Assembly (NCBI RefSeq): GCF_026651855.1
Contig: NZ_CP093280.1
Span: 4,628,001-4,692,000 of the forward strand
DNA: 64,000 nt
Direction: 5' to 3'
DNA from: Pseudomonas silvicola
Lineage (GTDB): Bacteria; Pseudomonadota; Gammaproteobacteria; Pseudomonadales; Pseudomonadaceae
Below the pieces are notes generated by a model, which was not told where the DNA came from, did no database searches, and saw nothing but the letters and a program-made list of their open reading frames with translations. A program made the position numbers and the translations under genes. Positions 49,307-56,058 of this stretch are shown here, piece by piece; position 1 is the first letter of the stretch, and every line of letters starts with the position of its first letter.

Positions 49307-50008
49307 TCAGTGGCCTCGTGCACTCCTGATGAATGCCTCATCCAACGTGGCCTCAGCAAAATGATCCAGAAACTCCCGAGCCCCGGCAAACTTCAGAAAA
49401 CGCCGCTTGTGAATCAGGTGGAACACATCACAGTGCTCAGTGATTTCATGGATATTATGAGACGACACCACAATCGTTGCTCCCTCGTCCCTGGCTTTAT
49501 GCAGGACCTGCCAGATGTAATGCCTCGACTCAGGATCTACGCCTGCCGTAGGTTCATCCAGAATAATCAACTTATTAGGTAGCGACAGAAGCGACAGGGT
49601 GAAGAAAAATCGGATTTCCCCGTAGCTGCAATGACTCGGCCGTTTTTTCAGGGTTTCGGCGTATTTACCGGCCAGGTACGGGTCCCAGTGTCTAAGCTTC
49701 GTCAGGGTGTCGTCCGTTGATATAGAACGTTTGGAAGACAGTACCGCCAGCAGCCCATAAATTTCCCGCATCGTAAGATTGGCGGGCATCCCTAACGTCT
49801 GCGATAGATAAGAGCGCGCTTCGCACGCTACCTTCAAGGTACCGGAGTCCGGCCGCCGAACGGAACAGAGCAAATCAAAAAAGGTCGTTTTCCCAGCACC
49901 GTTCGGCCCGATGATGCCGGTTATCTGCTGTCGATCAATATCGATGCTCGCACCGTCGAAAATGGGCTTGCCGGCGATACGAAGGTTAATGTTCCTGGCG
50001 CTGATCAT
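49307..50008 (-). CDS. mcbF: ABC exporter ATPase of microcin-type cluster (McbF-like)
   Basis: A 233-residue ABC ATPase. It has Walker A GPNGAGKTT, Walker B KLIILDEPTAGVD and H-loop VVSSHN, but the signature motif is degenerate (CSYGE in place of LSGGQ). The start at 50008 overlaps the permease stop by 1 nt (TGATG) and has GGAG 9 nt upstream; an ATG at 50023 is the alternative. By position and size it corresponds to McbF, part of the exporter that pumps the modified peptide out and gives partial self-protection. It is last in the operon. Confidence 0.9.
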   Translation of the reverse strand: MISARNINLRIAGKPIFDGASIDIDRQQITGIIGPNGAGKTTFFDLLCSVRRPDSGTLKVACEARSYLSQTLGMPANLTMREIYGLLAVLSSKRSISTDDTLTKLRHWDPYLAGKYAETLKKRPSHCSYGEIRFFFTLSLLSLPNKLIILDEPTAGVDPESRHYIWQVLHKARDEGATIVVSSHNIHEITEHCDVFHLIHKRRFLKFAGAREFLDHFAEATLDEAFIRSARGH

Positions 50009-50742
50009 CAGTAACGGCTCCATACGGGGTTAATCCGGAGGGTTTTTATCGTCAGCAGTACGGTGCCTGACAAAAGCGCAGCGCTGCCGGCCAGCGCCAT
50101 GAGCGGGATCTGAGCATTCTCCATGACTTGTTTGGCAATCACGAACGGGTTTAGCGCAGTGAGCCACTGGAAAGAGGGGCTAACGGCTTGCGTACCCATC
50201 AGTGCCGTCATGATCCCGCAAAACAGCAAGACAGAGATCAAGGTATTGGCGGTCTGGAACTTGAGCCGAGCGTTGGCGAGTAGCAAGGCCGGCGTGCAGA
50301 AACCCAGGAAGCAGACGTAGAAACGGAGGGTGAGGGCGATCGCCTCGCGTGGGTCGTAAGGCCCAAACGAGGGTTTGGTGATGAGGTAAAACGTACAGGC
50401 GTAAAGCAATGAAACGAGGGAATAGCTTAGAAAATGGCTGGTTAGAAATACGACTTTCGCAGAGCGCGTGTGCATGAAGGAGCGCACGAAACCGCTTTCT
50501 CTTCGGCCGATGAGGTAGAAGCAGAACCCGAAAAAGGCGACGCTTGAGGCTATGTAGGCATAGAACCAAGAGGTGGCGTGGGAGTAACCAAGCGTTACAG
50601 CAGTTTCGCGATTGTGGGATAGCAGATAAAAAAGTGCCGCAGGGGAAATGATTGTCCATATCAGTGAAAGAGGCTCTCTGATTTGTTCGAGGGTAAAAAT
50701 CCAGGTGAGAGACAAGACGCGGCGTGGTAGGGATGCTGTCAT
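50008..50742 (-). CDS. mcbE: ABC-2 type permease of microcin-type cluster (McbE-like)
   Basis: A 244-residue protein with six membrane segments of the ABC-2 type and few charged residues. It starts inside the stop of the YcaO gene (ATGA) and is followed by the ATPase. Size (McbE is about 241 residues) and position match McbE. It should form the membrane channel exporting the mature peptide. Confidence 0.88.
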   Translation of the reverse strand: MTASLPRRVLSLTWIFTLEQIREPLSLIWTIISPAALFYLLSHNRETAVTLGYSHATSWFYAYIASSVAFFGFCFYLIGRRESGFVRSFMHTRSAKVVFLTSHFLSYSLVSLLYACTFYLITKPSFGPYDPREAIALTLRFYVCFLGFCTPALLLANARLKFQTANTLISVLLFCGIMTALMGTQAVSPSFQWLTALNPFVIAKQVMENAQIPLMALAGSAALLSGTVLLTIKTLRINPVWSRY

Positions 50743-51941
50743 GGGAATGGCACCATTGTTTTTGAACGGTTCGGGTTTATTTTTGATGAAAAGGTGCCGG
50801 AGTACGCGTTGTGTAAGTTTATGCTTGTGGCATTATTCATGTGCATAAATATTCTGGGTGAAATGTATTTGCAGTAAAAATATATTGTTTTCTCACTGGT
50901 TTTTTGTTGTAAATATAAAAAGCCGTCTAGGTTGTTCTGGATAATATTTTTCCGGAGAGTTTCCAGCGATAGGGGGCGGGGCGGGGGAGTGGGTAATGAT
51001 GTGGCTATCGTGTTGCCTGATGTGGCTTCAAGATAGGTTGTGAATTTGTTGCATAGCATGAAGTGAAGTAGGTAGGGGTCCTCGATATCTTCGATGCATC
51101 GCGCTGTTAAGTGAAAGTCTCTAATGAACCTGAAGGTTTGCCAAAGCTCCAGAGCGGCCTTTTCAATAGCGCTGCCAACATCCGAACCATACCCCATGCC
51201 GGCACAGTAATGTACGTGCTGAGTAGTGTGTTCCGCGCCGTACAGCATCAGCGCGCAGTGGCCTGGGTAGGCGCTATCGGTGATATCAAATACACTAATC
51301 GAGCCCTCCGCTAGCAAGGCGTCGAGAAGCGGTGCCGCCGGTGATCCTGTTAAAAGTGCTTTGCACAGTGAGATGTTGTGCTGGCGGGTGATTTCTTTGG
51401 TGAGCCAATACCTGAGCAGGAACTGGCGTTCAAGAGACTCTTTCAGTGCCCCGGTTATTACGGTTTCGAGGTCCCAATGGAAGCTACATCCACAGGTGTC
51501 GCGTACCGGAAAAAAGTTGTTATCTATGTTTAACCCGGTCGGGTTGATTGACAAGCAAACCGTGGGTATTTCACATTCTGAGTAGTCGATGAGCCTCAAG
51601 GCGGTTGTTTTTCTGAAATGATGGGTAGTGATTGAGAGGTCAGATTGGGTAGCGTTTTTTGTTTGCTTGAAAGCCTTGGTGAAGTCATCTGTTTCCTGTG
51701 GGGTCAATGTGTCTTCGATTCGAGCCATTCCGGAGGTAGCGACCTCCATATAGAAGTGGCGCCGTTCGTAAAACTCACCGAGAGCACAACGCGTCGCGGA
51801 GGTTCCCCTACCGATACCAGAACCATACCGTTGCCACGGGTCTCCTATCTCTACTATGTTTGGGTAATGCCGGTTAAGCGCCGGCTGGTATAGTAGGTGG
51901 GTGGGTTGGTCGATGTTGAATGAAGTAGAAAAATGGTGCAT
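50739..51941 (-). CDS. mcbD: YcaO cyclodehydratase (McbD-like)
   Basis: A 400-residue YcaO protein that uses ATP to convert Ser/Cys of the precursor into azolines. ATP/Mg-binding residues are visible in SATRCALGEFYERRHF and GALKESLERQFLLRYW, and in SAIEKAALELWQTFRF. The C-terminus ends MVPFP, recalling the proline-rich tail of azole-forming YcaOs. Start at 51941, 2 nt after the McbC-like stop and 8 nt from AGGA; a longer reading from 51968 overlaps that gene. McbD is 396 residues. The gene is AT-richer than the flanking chromosome. Confidence 0.93.
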   Translation of the reverse strand: MHHFSTSFNIDQPTHLLYQPALNRHYPNIVEIGDPWQRYGSGIGRGTSATRCALGEFYERRHFYMEVATSGMARIEDTLTPQETDDFTKAFKQTKNATQSDLSITTHHFRKTTALRLIDYSECEIPTVCLSINPTGLNIDNNFFPVRDTCGCSFHWDLETVITGALKESLERQFLLRYWLTKEITRQHNISLCKALLTGSPAAPLLDALLAEGSISVFDITDSAYPGHCALMLYGAEHTTQHVHYCAGMGYGSDVGSAIEKAALELWQTFRFIRDFHLTARCIEDIEDPYLLHFMLCNKFTTYLEATSGNTIATSLPTPPPRPLSLETLRKNIIQNNLDGFLYLQQKTSEKTIYFYCKYISPRIFMHMNNATSINLHNAYSGTFSSKINPNRSKTMVPFP

Positions 51942-51943
51942 GG

Positions 51944-52735
51944 TTAGTATCCTACGAATTGAACGCAAAGGGGAACCGCCAGACCTGGATTTATAGATAA
52001 CGCATTGCTTACCATATGGTCGGTGTACCCGGACCAGACACGGTTTTTGAGGCCGAGAGCTCTACATTGCAAATCAACAAGCATATACATGGACCCTACT
52101 TCCATGAGCGCAAGACGATAGCCGCGATAACGGTATTTGAATAGGGTTTTTGGTAAGAATGCTACGTATATTAGAGCGAGGTAAGGTGTGCCTATAAAGC
52201 TTTGCCCTAGAAGGGCTTCTTTTAAATAATCATCTGGCTGGGTTGCTACAATGATCTCCAGTTTTCTGGATGCGGGTAACAGATGTAAAATATCGGATTC
52301 ACTGGGCCATCTGTCATTGCCTGGGCCCAGCCTGCAGCAAAACACGTCCACGGGATACAGCGCACCTCCACTCGGGTAAAGCCGATGGTGACCTTCCGCC
52401 GACGCTGTCGTAAGCGCTGAGAGCAGGCCTTTAACTGTCGGGAAACTGATTGGATCGTCTGTAAATCTGTCGCAGGAGCGATCTCGATTGAGAGGTGAGT
52501 TTGGTGGAAGAGGTCCGAGGTTCTCACTATTCAATGTGTTTTCCTGTAGTAGGTCGTAGCGTAGTTCTTTCCCGGATAATAGAGTTAAGGTGCTATGATC
52601 TATACCGTGAAGTATAGTCAGGTTTGAGGTTGCGGGGTGGAGGCAGTAGTTGCCCAAGGCGTGAAAGGCGAGCGTCTCGTCAAGGACCTGGGGGTCGCAA
52701 GATTTTAGGAAATGCTCATGCGGAATGTTATGCAT
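51944..52735 (-). CDS. mcbC: FMN-dependent azoline dehydrogenase (SagB/McbC-like)
   Basis: A 263-residue SagB-type nitroreductase-fold enzyme. RLYPSGGALYPVDVF is the family signature, and KYRYRGYRLALMEVGSMY contains the Lys-Tyr pair equivalent to the catalytic K201-Y202 of McbC. It oxidises thiazolines and oxazolines to thiazoles and oxazoles using FMN. Its start overlaps the McbB-like stop by 8 bp (ATGCATAA), with GGGAGG upstream. McbC is 272 residues. Confidence 0.93.
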   Translation of the reverse strand: MHNIPHEHFLKSCDPQVLDETLAFHALGNYCLHPATSNLTILHGIDHSTLTLLSGKELRYDLLQENTLNSENLGPLPPNSPLNRDRSCDRFTDDPISFPTVKGLLSALTTASAEGHHRLYPSGGALYPVDVFCCRLGPGNDRWPSESDILHLLPASRKLEIIVATQPDDYLKEALLGQSFIGTPYLALIYVAFLPKTLFKYRYRGYRLALMEVGSMYMLVDLQCRALGLKNRVWSGYTDHMVSNALSINPGLAVPLCVQFVGY

Positions 52736-53600
52736 GGGTACCTCCCAAACAGTCGCATAGGTGCCAGTGGGGAGGCCTTTCTTCGCAGATGACTGAGCTA
52801 TGAAGATTAATAGTGGTGTTTGAAAGAACGTTGTCCTGGTAGAACGAGGGGGCGCGTTGCGCTGTCATGGCGGATATTTTCCTCCCGATCAGTCCGATGA
52901 CCAGTGAATGCTGAAGTGCAGAGAGCTTTGGGTTGGGCAGGTCCACGTTGTTTGTCGAGCAGAACTTCATGGTTGCATTCCAGGCGCTCCGACTAGGTAG
53001 TTGGGTCTCGAAATGTACAACTCGGTCAACTGAGCAGAACAAGCAAGGGTTCGCGAGGCTGATGGAGTAAGGCTGTGTCATGGTAAAGCTATCTGGGGTG
53101 AAGTATCCAACGGTTGTAAAGTTTTCCCGGTGGCCTCTCGCAAGCGCAAAGTACATGGTCTTGATTGAATTAATGTTCTGGCTATTAGGGAGCAGGATTA
53201 CAAGGCTAGGGCCGCCGTCGATGTTTTTTATTGAGTCCATCTCGAGCGGGAGCCAGGTCAACGGCAATTTGATTTCCTGCTCTAGAATGTTTCGGGCTGC
53301 GGCCCAATGTTCGCCCTGCGTATGAAGGATGACTATTCTCTTGAAGTATGGCGAAGGAATATCAATATCAATTTTCAGCAGGGTATCCAGGTCGGGGAGG
53401 TCGATATGGGTTAACTGATGTCTTTTTAAAATATTATCGATATGTGCGGTCGTGGTAGGGGTGTCGCAATAGTCTTTGAGTTCGTGCAATGCTTTTATCA
53501 TTTTTTTGGATTTGATTCGAGTTATGCCTTTTTTTGAAGAAAGGAGGCTATAGTCTTCAAAATTTAGCAGTTCGTAGTTGTGGATTTTTATAGTGGTCAT
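52728..53600 (-). CDS. mcbB: McbB-like Ocin-ThiF/E1-like leader-binding protein
   Basis: A 290-residue protein. The stretch NPCLFCSVDRVVHFE and the C-terminal SSVICEERPPHWHLCDCLGG match the two Cys pairs of E. coli McbB (about 295 residues; TPCHFCHIERW and ...CKEPVIHWQACSCL), which bind zinc. The N-terminal part should contain the precursor-binding winged-helix. McbB presents the leader peptide to the cyclodehydratase. It is 64 bp downstream of the precursor gene. Confidence 0.92.
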   Translation of the reverse strand: MTTIKIHNYELLNFEDYSLLSSKKGITRIKSKKMIKALHELKDYCDTPTTTAHIDNILKRHQLTHIDLPDLDTLLKIDIDIPSPYFKRIVILHTQGEHWAAARNILEQEIKLPLTWLPLEMDSIKNIDGGPSLVILLPNSQNINSIKTMYFALARGHRENFTTVGYFTPDSFTMTQPYSISLANPCLFCSVDRVVHFETQLPSRSAWNATMKFCSTNNVDLPNPKLSALQHSLVIGLIGRKISAMTAQRAPSFYQDNVLSNTTINLHSSVICEERPPHWHLCDCLGGTHA

Positions 53601-53615
53601 CGTTGTCCCCAGCAG

Positions 53616-53635
53616 CGCCCGCCAATTGGCAGGCG
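53616..53635 (-). promoter_or_regulatory. Stem-loop between precursor and synthetase genes
   Basis: CGCCTGCCAATTGGCGGGCG forms a hairpin around GCCAATTGGC (one internal mismatch) 29 nt after the precursor stop. It has no T-run. It may limit read-through or protect the precursor mRNA so that precursor is made in excess over enzymes. Confidence 0.5.
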
Positions 53636-53664
53636 TGCATTGGTTTGTTGATGGGGTAATAATC

Positions 53665-53880
53665 TTAATCGGTCACTTCGTCCATAGTGATCGCATTGCC
53701 GCCGGAACCACCTCCACAACCTCCGGATCCCCCACTTCCACCGCTACAGCCACCGCCACCCCCACTCCCCCCACTTCCACCGCCACCACCAGACCCTCCG
53801 GATCCGCCGTTGACTGAAAGCAGCAGGTCATCGTGATTGTCGTCTAGCGCGAGCAGAATTTCATAGGTTTCATTGTTCAT
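53665..53880 (-). CDS. mcbA: Microcin B17-like precursor peptide, Gly/Ser/Cys-rich
   Basis: A 71-residue peptide. Residues 1-24 (MNNETYEILLALDDNHDDLLLSVN) form an acidic leader, with Y6 and L10 placed like the recognition residues F8 and L12 of McbA. Residues 25-61 are almost only Gly, Ser and Cys: eight Ser (27, 30, 36, 39, 46, 49, 52, 59) and two Cys (45, 55), including one adjacent Cys-Ser pair (45-46) able to give a fused bis-azole. The tail NAITMDEVTD is acidic. GGAG lies 10 nt before the ATG. McbA is 69 residues. The first gene of the island operon. Confidence 0.93.
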   Translation of the reverse strand: MNNETYEILLALDDNHDDLLLSVNGGSGGSGGGGGSGGSGGGGGCSGGSGGSGGCGGGSGGNAITMDEVTD

Positions 53881-54414
53881 CGTTATGGTTCTCCGATTCA
53901 ACTATGTGCCCCTGGACTCCAGAGGTAAGTACTTTTTAGTTTTGAAGTTTGGGTACGTCAATCGGGAGGTGGGCATAGAGGCGGGTGTTGGGGGATGCGG
54001 TTTTTCAGAGTTGTAGGAATGGTCTGGCGGACATATCCTAGGGTGGTGTAGGGAGAAAATGATAAGCTGTATGTCGTGGCTGTTATTTGTATCTTTCTGT
54101 AATATTAGGTAGGGGAGTTCTTGAATTAGCGTAGGATAGTTCCGAAAATAGATGAGAAAAGTATTTTTAAACGCTATGAATTATTGATTCGTTTCCGATG
54201 AACGGTCGTGGGGCGAGGAGGGATTTTTTGCCACGGAGGCATTTTCCTAAAAAACGGGGGAGCTCGCCCCGGGTACGGATGTACGGCGCGTGACGCACGC
54301 TCATGGGGCTTGTTCGGGGCATCAAAATGCGGCTGGATGCTTGTGGCGCTCCCAGGACCAGCTCTACTCGCACCGAGCCCGATGTTGGGAACGCCGAAAC
54401 ATAGAGGCTTGCAC
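53881..54414. other. AT-rich leader/promoter region of the microcin-type operon
   Basis: A 534-bp gap upstream of the precursor. On the minus strand a -35 TTGACG (53956-53961) and a -10 TAAAAA (53933-53938) are 17 bp apart, about 55 bp from the start codon. The stretch 54060-54200 is strongly AT-rich. A minus-strand frame at 54167-54421 runs into the next gene's 3' end and has no recognisable family; it is probably not a gene. Confidence 0.6.
53933..53961 (-). promoter_or_regulatory. Candidate promoter of the precursor gene
   Basis: TTGACG and TAAAAA, separated by 17 bp, point toward the precursor gene. The -35 has five of six consensus bases and the -10 four of six. Confidence 0.45.
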
Positions 54415-56058
54415 CTAGCAAGCCGTATCGGCTAGTCCTACCTCCTGAACCAAGATCCGACGCCCCGGTATCGCGTCCAGCAACTCCCGCGTATACCGAT
54501 CCGACGGCTGCCCCAGCACTCGGCTCGCCGGCCCTTGCTCAACCACTTCCCCACGCCGCAGCACCACTACCTCATGAGCCAGGCTGGCAACCACGGCCAG
54601 GTCATGGGACACCAGCACATAAGCAACGCCCAACTCAGCCTGCAAGCCGCGCAGCAGTTCGAGGATCTGTGCCTGCACCGACACGTCCAGCGCCGACACC
54701 GGTTCGTCCAGCAACAGCAGGTCAGGCTTCAGCGCCAACGCGCGAGCGATGGCCACGCGCTGGCGCTGGCCGCCGGACAGTTCCCGGGGCAGGCAGTCCA
54801 GGTAGCTGGCCGGCAGTTGCACCTGATCCATCAGTTGCCGCGCCGCCTGGCGCAGTGGCTCGCCCTTGAGCAGGCCGAAGGACACCAGGGGCTCCACCAC
54901 GCTCTCGAAAATCGTGAAGCGCGGGTTGAGCGAGGCGAAGGGGTTCTGCTGCACCAGTTGCATGCGTTGGCGCAGGGGACGGAATTGCTGCCAGGTGAGG
55001 TGGGTGAGGTCCTGGCCGTCAAAGCGCACCTTGCCTTCGCTGGCGGTTTCCAGGCCCAGGGCGATGCGCAGGCTGGTACTTTTCCCCGAGCCGGATTCCC
55101 CGACGATGGCCACGGTTTGCCCTCGGTGCACATTCAGGCTCAGCCCCTGCAGGGCCTGGAAGCTTTGCGCCTGGCCGTTGCGGGCGGGCAGGGCGTAACG
55201 CTTGCCGACCTTTTCCAGGGCGAGCAATGGCCGCGAGGCGCCGGAAGGCAGGGGCACGGGGCCTTTGCCCTGGCCAAAGGCCGGCGCCGCGGCGAGCAGG
55301 GCGCGGGTGTAGGCCTGGGTCGGGGCGCCGAGCACCTGGCGCGCAGGCCCCTGTTCCACCCGTTGGCCGTCTTTCATGACCAGTACGCGGTCAGCGCGGT
55401 CAGCGGCCACGCCCAGGTCGTGGGTGATGATGATCAGTGAAATGCCGCGCGCCTGTACCAGCTGTTCCAGATGGTCGAGGATGCGTCGCTGCACGGTGAC
55501 GTCCAGGGCACTGGTGGGTTCGTCGGCGATGATCACCTTGGGGTTGCCGGCCAGGGCGATGGCGATCAGCACGCGCTGGCGCATGCCGCCGGAGAGTTCG
55601 TGGGGGTATTGCCGCGCGCGCAGGGCGGGGGCATCCAGGCCGACCTGGGCCAGCAGTTCGAGCACGTCGGCATCCAGCGCTGGGTAGCGGCGGCCGTGGG
55701 CCAGGATCAGGCTTTCACCGATCTGCCGGCCGATGGTCAGCGTCGGGTTGAGGCTGACCATGGGGTCCTGGGGTACCAGCCCGATGACCCGGCCGCGTAG
55801 CTGACGCTTGACCCGCTCGCTGGCGTGGCTGATGTCGGTGTCGGCGACCCGCAGGCTGCCGCCGCTGATGCGCGCGCTGGCGGGCAGCAAACCGAGCAGC
55901 GCGCTGGCCAGGGTGGTCTTGCCGGAGCCGGACTCGCCCACGATAGCCAGGGTTTCGCCCTGCTTCAGGCTGAAGGACAGCTGGCGCACAGCCTCCTTCA
56001 CGCGCCCGGCGGTGTGGTAGCTCACGCTCAAGTCACGTACTTCGATCAGGGCACTCAT
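54415..56058 (-). CDS. Double ATPase of a dipeptide/nickel-type ABC importer
   Basis: A 547-residue fusion of two ABC ATPase domains, each with Walker A (GESGSGKTT at about 40 and GESGSGKST at about 315), a signature motif (LSGGM and LSGGQ) and Walker B ([24 protein letters not shown]). It corresponds to fused DppD/DppF. Its start overlaps the permease stop by 4 bp (ATGA), after GGAGG. Last gene of the importer operon. Confidence 0.93.

Follow-up and report, generated by a model that had tools for sequence, protein, structure and literature searches.

Replacement of two near-invariant core cysteines in the precursor of a microcin B-like operon of Pseudomonas silvicola

What does a microcin B-type operon make when the cysteines that nearly all of its relatives keep, and that would become thiazoles, have been replaced in its precursor? 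The question is raised by a locus of Pseudomonas silvicola (assembly GCF_026651855.1) lying in a stretch of 64,000 nucleotides, hereafter the window, that covers positions 4,628,001 to 4,692,000 of contig NZ_CP093280.1. We conclude with good confidence that this is a microcin B-like azole-peptide operon whose product differs from that of its kin, Gly33 and Ser39 replacing thiazole-forming cysteines. The kind of cluster is known, since mcb-like clusters in Pseudomonas have already been published (PMC4603692, PMC8719888, PMC7136475). What is new here, as far as the sequences compared go, is the recoded core, with substitutions found in none of 46 distinct relatives.

The open reading frames (ORFs) of the window include six intact genes on the minus strand between 49307 and 53880, in the order precursor-McbB-McbC-McbD-McbE-McbF:

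53665..53880, minus strand: McbA-like precursor, an open frame of 71 residues whose Gly/Ser/Cys core aligns with that of 21 relatives
52728..53600, minus strand: McbB-like, E1-like protein of 290 residues with two Cys pairs (TIGR04424; McbB of 6gos)
51944..52735, minus strand: McbC-like flavin mononucleotide (FMN) azoline dehydrogenase of 263 residues with FKYRYRGY (Lys200-Tyr201) (McbC of 6gos; Pfam Nitroreductase)
50739..51941, minus strand: McbD-like YcaO cyclodehydratase of 400 residues with C-terminal MVPFP (McbD of 6gos; Pfam YcaO)
50008..50742, minus strand: McbE-like ATP-binding cassette (ABC)-2 permease of 244 residues (homology to Escherichia coli McbE)
49307..50023, minus strand: McbF-like ABC ATPase (homology to E. 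coli McbF; Pfam ABC_tran)

Six minus-strand genes in A-F order had been proposed in a previous sequence-only reading, and its coordinates are confirmed; the 233 residues it gave for McbF correspond to a start at the second ATG, the first giving 238. McbB and McbC overlap by 8 bases, McbC and McbD are separated by 2 bases, McbD and McbE overlap by 4 bases (ATGA) and McbE and McbF also overlap, while a GGAG lies 10 bases upstream of the precursor ATG. Promoter-like sites occur near chance level (7 against 4.6 expected), as do terminator-like ones (7 against 5.5).

The operon assignment is not a product of chance, because it is carried by matches to TIGR04424, to the proteins of the E. coli microcin B17 synthetase (PDB 6gos) and to E. 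coli McbE and McbF. Among the NCBIfam models, TIGR04424 recognises McbB at E 8.6e-40 (137.2 bits, cut-off 65). The 6gos proteins are the sole or top matches among solved structures for McbB (E 5.1e-11), McbC (E 5.6e-44) and McbD (E 2.3e-66). Above the Pfam cut-offs we found Nitroreductase in McbC, YcaO in McbD (2.2e-12) and ABC_tran in McbF. McbC stays under the cut-off of the SagB model TIGR03605 (73.9 vs 78.4 bits), McbD far under that of the SagD model TIGR03604 (16 vs 219 bits) and McbE under that of Pfam ABC2_membrane_3 (21.7 vs 31.6 bits). Both transporter proteins align over their full length with the E. coli plasmid proteins, McbE at 32% identity (E 4e-38) and McbF at 28% (E 1e-36). 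Homology and profile searches thus return the mcb counterpart for every protein from McbB to McbF, which bears out the description of the locus as a microcin B17-like operon, complete from A to F, whose synthetase enzymes are of the McbB/C/D type. Among the diagnostic residues named in the same reading, those of McbB and McbC hold as well: the four Cys of McbB align with the E. coli McbB cysteines, and F199, K200, Y201 and R202 of McbC are invariant in 22/22 aligned sequences. The window retains all of these McbB cysteines together with FKYRYRGY in McbC and MVPFP at the C terminus of McbD. The genome has a second YcaO-domain gene about 146 kb away from the operon (G000:C1:4825513-4826520; 223.7 bits, frame of 806 residues).

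The precursor itself matches no Pfam or NCBIfam family, and its 28 matches in the PDB, all at E 0.0013 or worse, are taken to reflect common Gly/Ser composition. Its parts and the two codons at issue are as follows:

53809..53880, minus strand: leader, residues 1-24, with a putative boundary
53668..53808, minus strand: core, residues 25-71, with a putative start and the tail NAITMDEVTD
53782..53784, minus strand: codon 33, GGC (Gly), aligned with Cys in 45/46 distinct relatives
53764..53766, minus strand: codon 39, AGT (Ser), aligned with Cys in 45/46 distinct relatives
53729..53783, minus strand: 16-base exact repeat, copies 53768-53783 and 53729-53744, linking codons 33-38 with 46-51

When compared by eye, Tyr6 and Leu10 of the leader occupy the positions of Phe8 and Leu12 in the leader of E. 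coli McbA, which have a functional role there. The core reads GGSGGSGG-G-GGSGG-S-GGGGG-C-SGGSGG, and its candidate ring sites are Ser 27, 30, 36, 39, 46, 49, 52 and 59 and Cys 45 and 55. It is devoid of Lys, Arg and His, and three acidic residues stand in the tail.

In order to compare this core with others, we collected the Gly-rich frames preceding McbB, which yielded 46 distinct precursors from Pseudomonadaceae and Litchfieldella, the window standing outside this count. Six enterobacterial precursors and one from Cupriavidus, with a different core, were excluded; no precursor was found at L088, and none by the Gly-rich test at L095-L108. The motif G(G/A)SG(G/S)(A/Q/K)GGCGGSG(G/D)CGGGGGCxGGSG, which is derived from these sequences and is not a published definition, is carried by 45 of the 46. 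Between the first core Gly and the position of the third conserved Cys, the window core aligns with 45 other precursors; it departs from the motif by C33G and C39S at its first two Cys, the only case in which substitutions are responsible. The remaining exception, P. reinekei (L071), has lost two conserved Cys with a deleted 12-residue core block, and its enzymes are full length. At both Cys positions the relatives use TGC or TGT (43 precursors read), and a single-base change is enough for each codon, TGC to GGC and TGT to AGT. Motif-bearing relatives have three (16/45), four (23/45) or five (6/45) core Cys, against two Cys and eight Ser in the window, where position 30 is Ser instead of Ala, Gln or Lys. 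Three Ser (30, 39 and 59) are additional in this core, whose Gly spacing stays in register. The longest internal repeat is the one of 16 bases in the window, at most 14 bases in the other Pseudomonas-type precursors measured and 17 in E. coli McbA; the first Cys may have been lost by copying within the gene.

The precursor had previously been judged far from McbA and its compound probably new. The former is true with respect to E. coli McbA and fails with respect to the Pseudomonas-type precursors, so that the novelty narrows to the two replaced core cysteines; a precursor unrelated to known ones was considered and rejected by the core alignment with the 21 relatives. The precursor of Cupriavidus basilensis (L091) has a short Ser-rich core, unlike both the Pseudomonas and the enterobacterial types.

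On the model of microcin B synthesis, McbB would bind the precursor leader, and probably zinc; McbD (YcaO, ATP) together with McbB would convert core Ser and Cys to azolines, and McbC would oxidise these to oxazoles and thiazoles. Because two of the three near-invariant Cys are replaced, the number of thiazoles would not exceed two (45, 55), with as many as eight oxazoles. Cys45-Ser46 is placed for a fused thiazole-oxazole and resembles the GCSGG stretch of E. coli. The computed [M+H]+ of the core from Gly25 is 3550.34 unmodified and 3350.08 with ten rings, 20.026 Da being lost per ring. The leader would then be trimmed by a chromosomal TldD/TldE-type protease, a role described for such proteins in E. 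coli (PMC5810440). PF01523 (PmbA/TldD family) scores above cut-off at three places of the window's genome, two of them about 2 kb apart, and leader trimming is presumably covered by these chromosomal genes:

G000:C1:2012521 and 2014599, window's genome: neighbouring PmbA/TldD-family genes (PF01523)

Finally, McbE/McbF would protect the producer and export the product, which most probably acts as an antibacterial on related bacteria.

How the two Cys were lost can be approached from the position of the locus among its kin. In a FastTree tree of McbB, McbC and McbD (66 tips; L097, L098, L107 and duplicates left out), the window is nested in the Pseudomonas clade and Litchfieldella, with all three Cys, falls outside. 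For this reason the most likely view is that the losses are derived; local support along the path to the window is modest (0.64, 0.84 and 0.91), and places may shift on rerooting. We read the data as a deep lineage with a putatively functional enzyme set and a recoded precursor. Several points weigh against such a reading. The branch of the window is long (0.96 substitutions per site), its identity to the nearest neighbour is the lowest of 48 compared for McbB (37%) and McbF (51%), and no close relative of the cluster was found in the genomes sampled; the long branch and the low identity could reflect relaxed constraint. The P. reinekei precursor is left with a single core Cys by its deletion, and the window is thus not the sole Cys-poor core. 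Ser being slower to cyclise than Cys, a core poor in Cys may be a slow substrate, and activity may require the conserved cysteines.

A rival reading is a decaying cluster, whose Cys losses would mean that the product no longer matters. The long branch would fit, as would the two losses, seen as substitutions in no other precursor, and the synthetase genes found in pieces or shortened in some relatives (McbD in L040, L050 and L079; McbB in L032, L065, L088 and L089; McbC in L086 and L092), which indicate that such clusters do decay, or that sequence error occurs. In the window, however, the six frames are open with their overlaps intact, and the precursor has kept its register and Gly spacing while carrying the three extra Ser. 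The conserved columns of the synthetase argue the same way: across 45 sequences, window included, no otherwise invariant column has the window as its single exception, the invariant columns numbering 7 in McbB, 29 in McbC and 39 in McbD. This count covers these three proteins, with 24 partial, distant or redundant loci excluded (L095-L108, L088, L086, L040, L079, L081, L053, L065, L089, L092, L076). Since no lone deviation is seen there, we consider decay quite improbable. An assembly or sequencing artefact in the Gly-rich repeat deserves hardly any credence. The 16-base internal repeat would invite it, and the assembly (8.65 Mb, the window lying on a 7.6-Mb contig) is rated 8.04% contaminated; yet frame and codon phase are intact throughout the precursor, the changes are substitutions and not repeat-length error alone, and the contig is of that great length. 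The preferred explanation remains an operon with a recoded core. One extension of it is that a diverged synthetase cyclises Ser where the kin use Cys, giving a natural oxazole-dominant microcin B with a changed target or range and self-protection by export only; this we put forward as speculative and on balance unlikely.

Whatever rings are formed, the target of the product has to be considered together with McbG, the pentapeptide-repeat protein of the E. coli system. Queries with E. coli and Rahnella McbG did not find McbG in the operon, and the E. coli protein found none in the window's genome at E 1e-3. At the Pseudomonas-type loci scanned, McbG was not found within the fetched stretches, some of them stopping shortly past McbF, while it is present in 6/6 enterobacterial loci. 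In whole genomes, three of the 32 that are mcb-positive show weak matches to E. coli McbG (E no better than 7.7e-5), at least 0.9 Mb from mcb. PF00805 gives matches at two places of the window's genome. One is a qnrB-like pentapeptide-repeat gene on contig C2 (L154, G000:C2:112000-114500, about 978-1621) in two separate frames. A piece of this gene resembles Rahnella McbG at 1.7e-8 and, in the same way, E. coli McbG at 6.3e-4, both values coming from a small set, and it weighs against a clean absence of McbG; the second place is a short ORF whose family scores are weak. Immunity through a McbG elsewhere in the genome is not supported, only this split gene and the weak short ORF being available. 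A McbG homologue was detected in one of 398 genus genomes (G317; L186, G317:C143, 7763-8635), beside a partial McbF, at a limit of E 1e-10 with Rahnella McbG that would miss more distant homologues. That genome is 87% complete, and the McbG-bearing contig ends inside McbF, the rest of the cluster not being found. McbG-bearing clusters exist, and the window's is not one. An altered gyrase in the producer was also considered, for GyrB: the C-terminal 400 residues of host GyrB align gap-free with E. coli GyrB and keep the equivalent of Trp751, a residue whose change gives full (PMC7680869) or modest (PMC10886550) resistance to microcin B17.

The sequence-only reading expected a product that is probably a DNA gyrase poison. 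This expectation is weak in view of an operon without McbG, a tail unlike Ser-His-Ile and a published counter-argument (PMC7136475). A plain gyrase poison with the mechanism of E. coli microcin B17, the core change being cosmetic only, is to us a tenable idea with somewhat less than an even chance. Gyrase is the target of the microcin B-like products of P. syringae (PMC7680869, PMC7136475), and it is still poisoned in vitro by an E. coli fragment devoid of the poly-Gly stretch and of one bis-heterocycle (PMC3622597); the window retains GCSGGSGGSGG, comparable to GCSGGNGGSGG of E. coli, and a core without Lys or Arg, like E. coli microcin B17. On the other hand, host GyrB keeps the Trp751 equivalent while McbG was found neither in the operon nor, at E 1e-3 with the E. 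coli protein, in the genome, removal of the Ser-His-Ile tail abolishes cleavage-complex activity of the E. coli compound (PMC3622597) where the precursor of the window ends in NAITMDEVTD, and clusters lacking a pentapeptide protein have been argued to have another target (PMC7136475). That the product is an antibacterial azole peptide built in the same way but aimed at a target different from gyrase, such as the ribosome in the case of klebsazolicin and phazolicin, falls only a little short of an even chance in our estimation. That argument was made in print for McbG-less Pseudomonas clusters, whose target is there left open (PMC7136475). It agrees with the Pseudomonas-type loci, where McbG is missing within the stretches fetched, and Pseudomonas congeners may inhibit translation (PMC10886550). 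Phazolicin, however, contacts ribosomal RNA phosphates by positive side chains (PMC7136475), of which the window core has none, and the acidic residues of its tail likewise speak against the ribosome; Pseudomonas congeners are also described as acting on DNA topology (PMC7680869). The literature is split, and our data leave the choice between gyrase and another target unsettled. In E. coli, immunity is conferred by McbE, McbF and McbG (PMC10912980). Should gyrase be the target, self-protection would probably depend on McbEF, since the operon has no McbG and GyrB keeps the Trp751 equivalent.

Altogether, the locus amounts to a natural experiment, in which one lineage has a whole enzyme set and two of three near-invariant thiazole sites replaced. 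Work on E. coli fragments has addressed which parts of microcin B are important for gyrase (PMC3622597); setting this product against the one made by a three-Cys relative would bear on that question and on the target. If active, the product would be a new antibacterial scaffold with more oxazole than thiazole.

The operon forms an island of low guanine plus cytosine (GC) content:

49310..54460, no strand: low-GC island, operon 50.2% GC vs 64.4% for the rest of the window, left edge imprecise

In all 21 relatives examined for composition (L031-L051) the operon is likewise poorer in GC than its surroundings, at 39-48% against 59-68% in the flanks. Homology to the chromosome of a relative (G009, 78%) resumes at 54461, just beyond the island. 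In this empty-site comparison the right flank is syntenic from there on, and the left flanking gene lies on a different G009 contig. Clusters of this type are by no means a rarity, an idea rejected by the counts, which come from overlapping samples and each include the window's own genome. Full-length McbC of the window type (E <=2.9e-69) occurs in 22/298 genus genomes, the next match being at 1.2e-8, and a profile of the 22 McbC sequences finds 25/398 genus genomes (E 1e-40) and 14/398 family genomes (E 1e-30), one of these in another genus. A scan of one genome per species returned 64 loci: 37 in Pseudomonas, 1 in Litchfieldella, 13 in Legionella/Legionellales, 5 in Kosakonia, Erwinia, Cupriavidus, Tenebrionibacter and Mixta, 1 in another gammaproteobacterium and 7 weak matches elsewhere. 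No relative was found on viral contigs. Plasmids gave 143 records, 99 from Escherichia and 27 from Klebsiella, all below 60% identity. In the DNA search of the region against plasmids no record covers 80%, and the best 20 of 75 records match at most 4%, their named features being ABC-transporter genes. The Legionella-type loci (L095, L096, L098-L106, L108) have McbB and McbC homologues, and McbD too except in L098, where alone a McbF match is seen. In none of them does a Gly-rich precursor lie in the 2.6 kb upstream of the McbC match, McbE has no match either, and these loci may make a different azole peptide.

Set beside known systems, the operon shares the McbA-McbF order and homology with E. 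coli mcbA-G (plasmid pSK1144, L156; 6gos). It differs in its chromosomal contig, in McbB-McbF proteins that are 20-36% identical and in a precursor whose leader, poly-Gly spacer, ring pattern and tail are not those of McbA; it also lacks the McbG immunity gene that marks microcin B17 in the strict sense. With the P. syringae microcin B-like compounds it has in common the genus and an mcb-like operon (PMC7136475, PMC7680869, PMC8719888). As described, those compounds are set apart by a McbG homologue (PMC8719888) and a gyrase target. Klebsazolicin and phazolicin, which target the ribosome (PMC7680869, PMC7136475), are described as made by the same kinds of enzymes without McbG (PMC7136475), in contrast to which the precursor of the window is Gly-rich and microcin B-like, with a core free of positive residues. 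McbG-less mcb-like clusters of Pseudomonas, reported by one group in its own strains (PMC8719888), differ by the three-Cys motif, which the window lacks through Gly33 and Ser39. Ser30, four more residues before the tail than in the usual form and McbB-McbF proteins only 37-51% identical to the nearest relative further distinguish the window from them. With these same clusters (PMC8719888, PMC4603692, PMC7136475) it nevertheless shares the A-F order without McbG, the low-GC island and a Gly-rich core in a common frame, with a tail that often starts GGNA(I/V).

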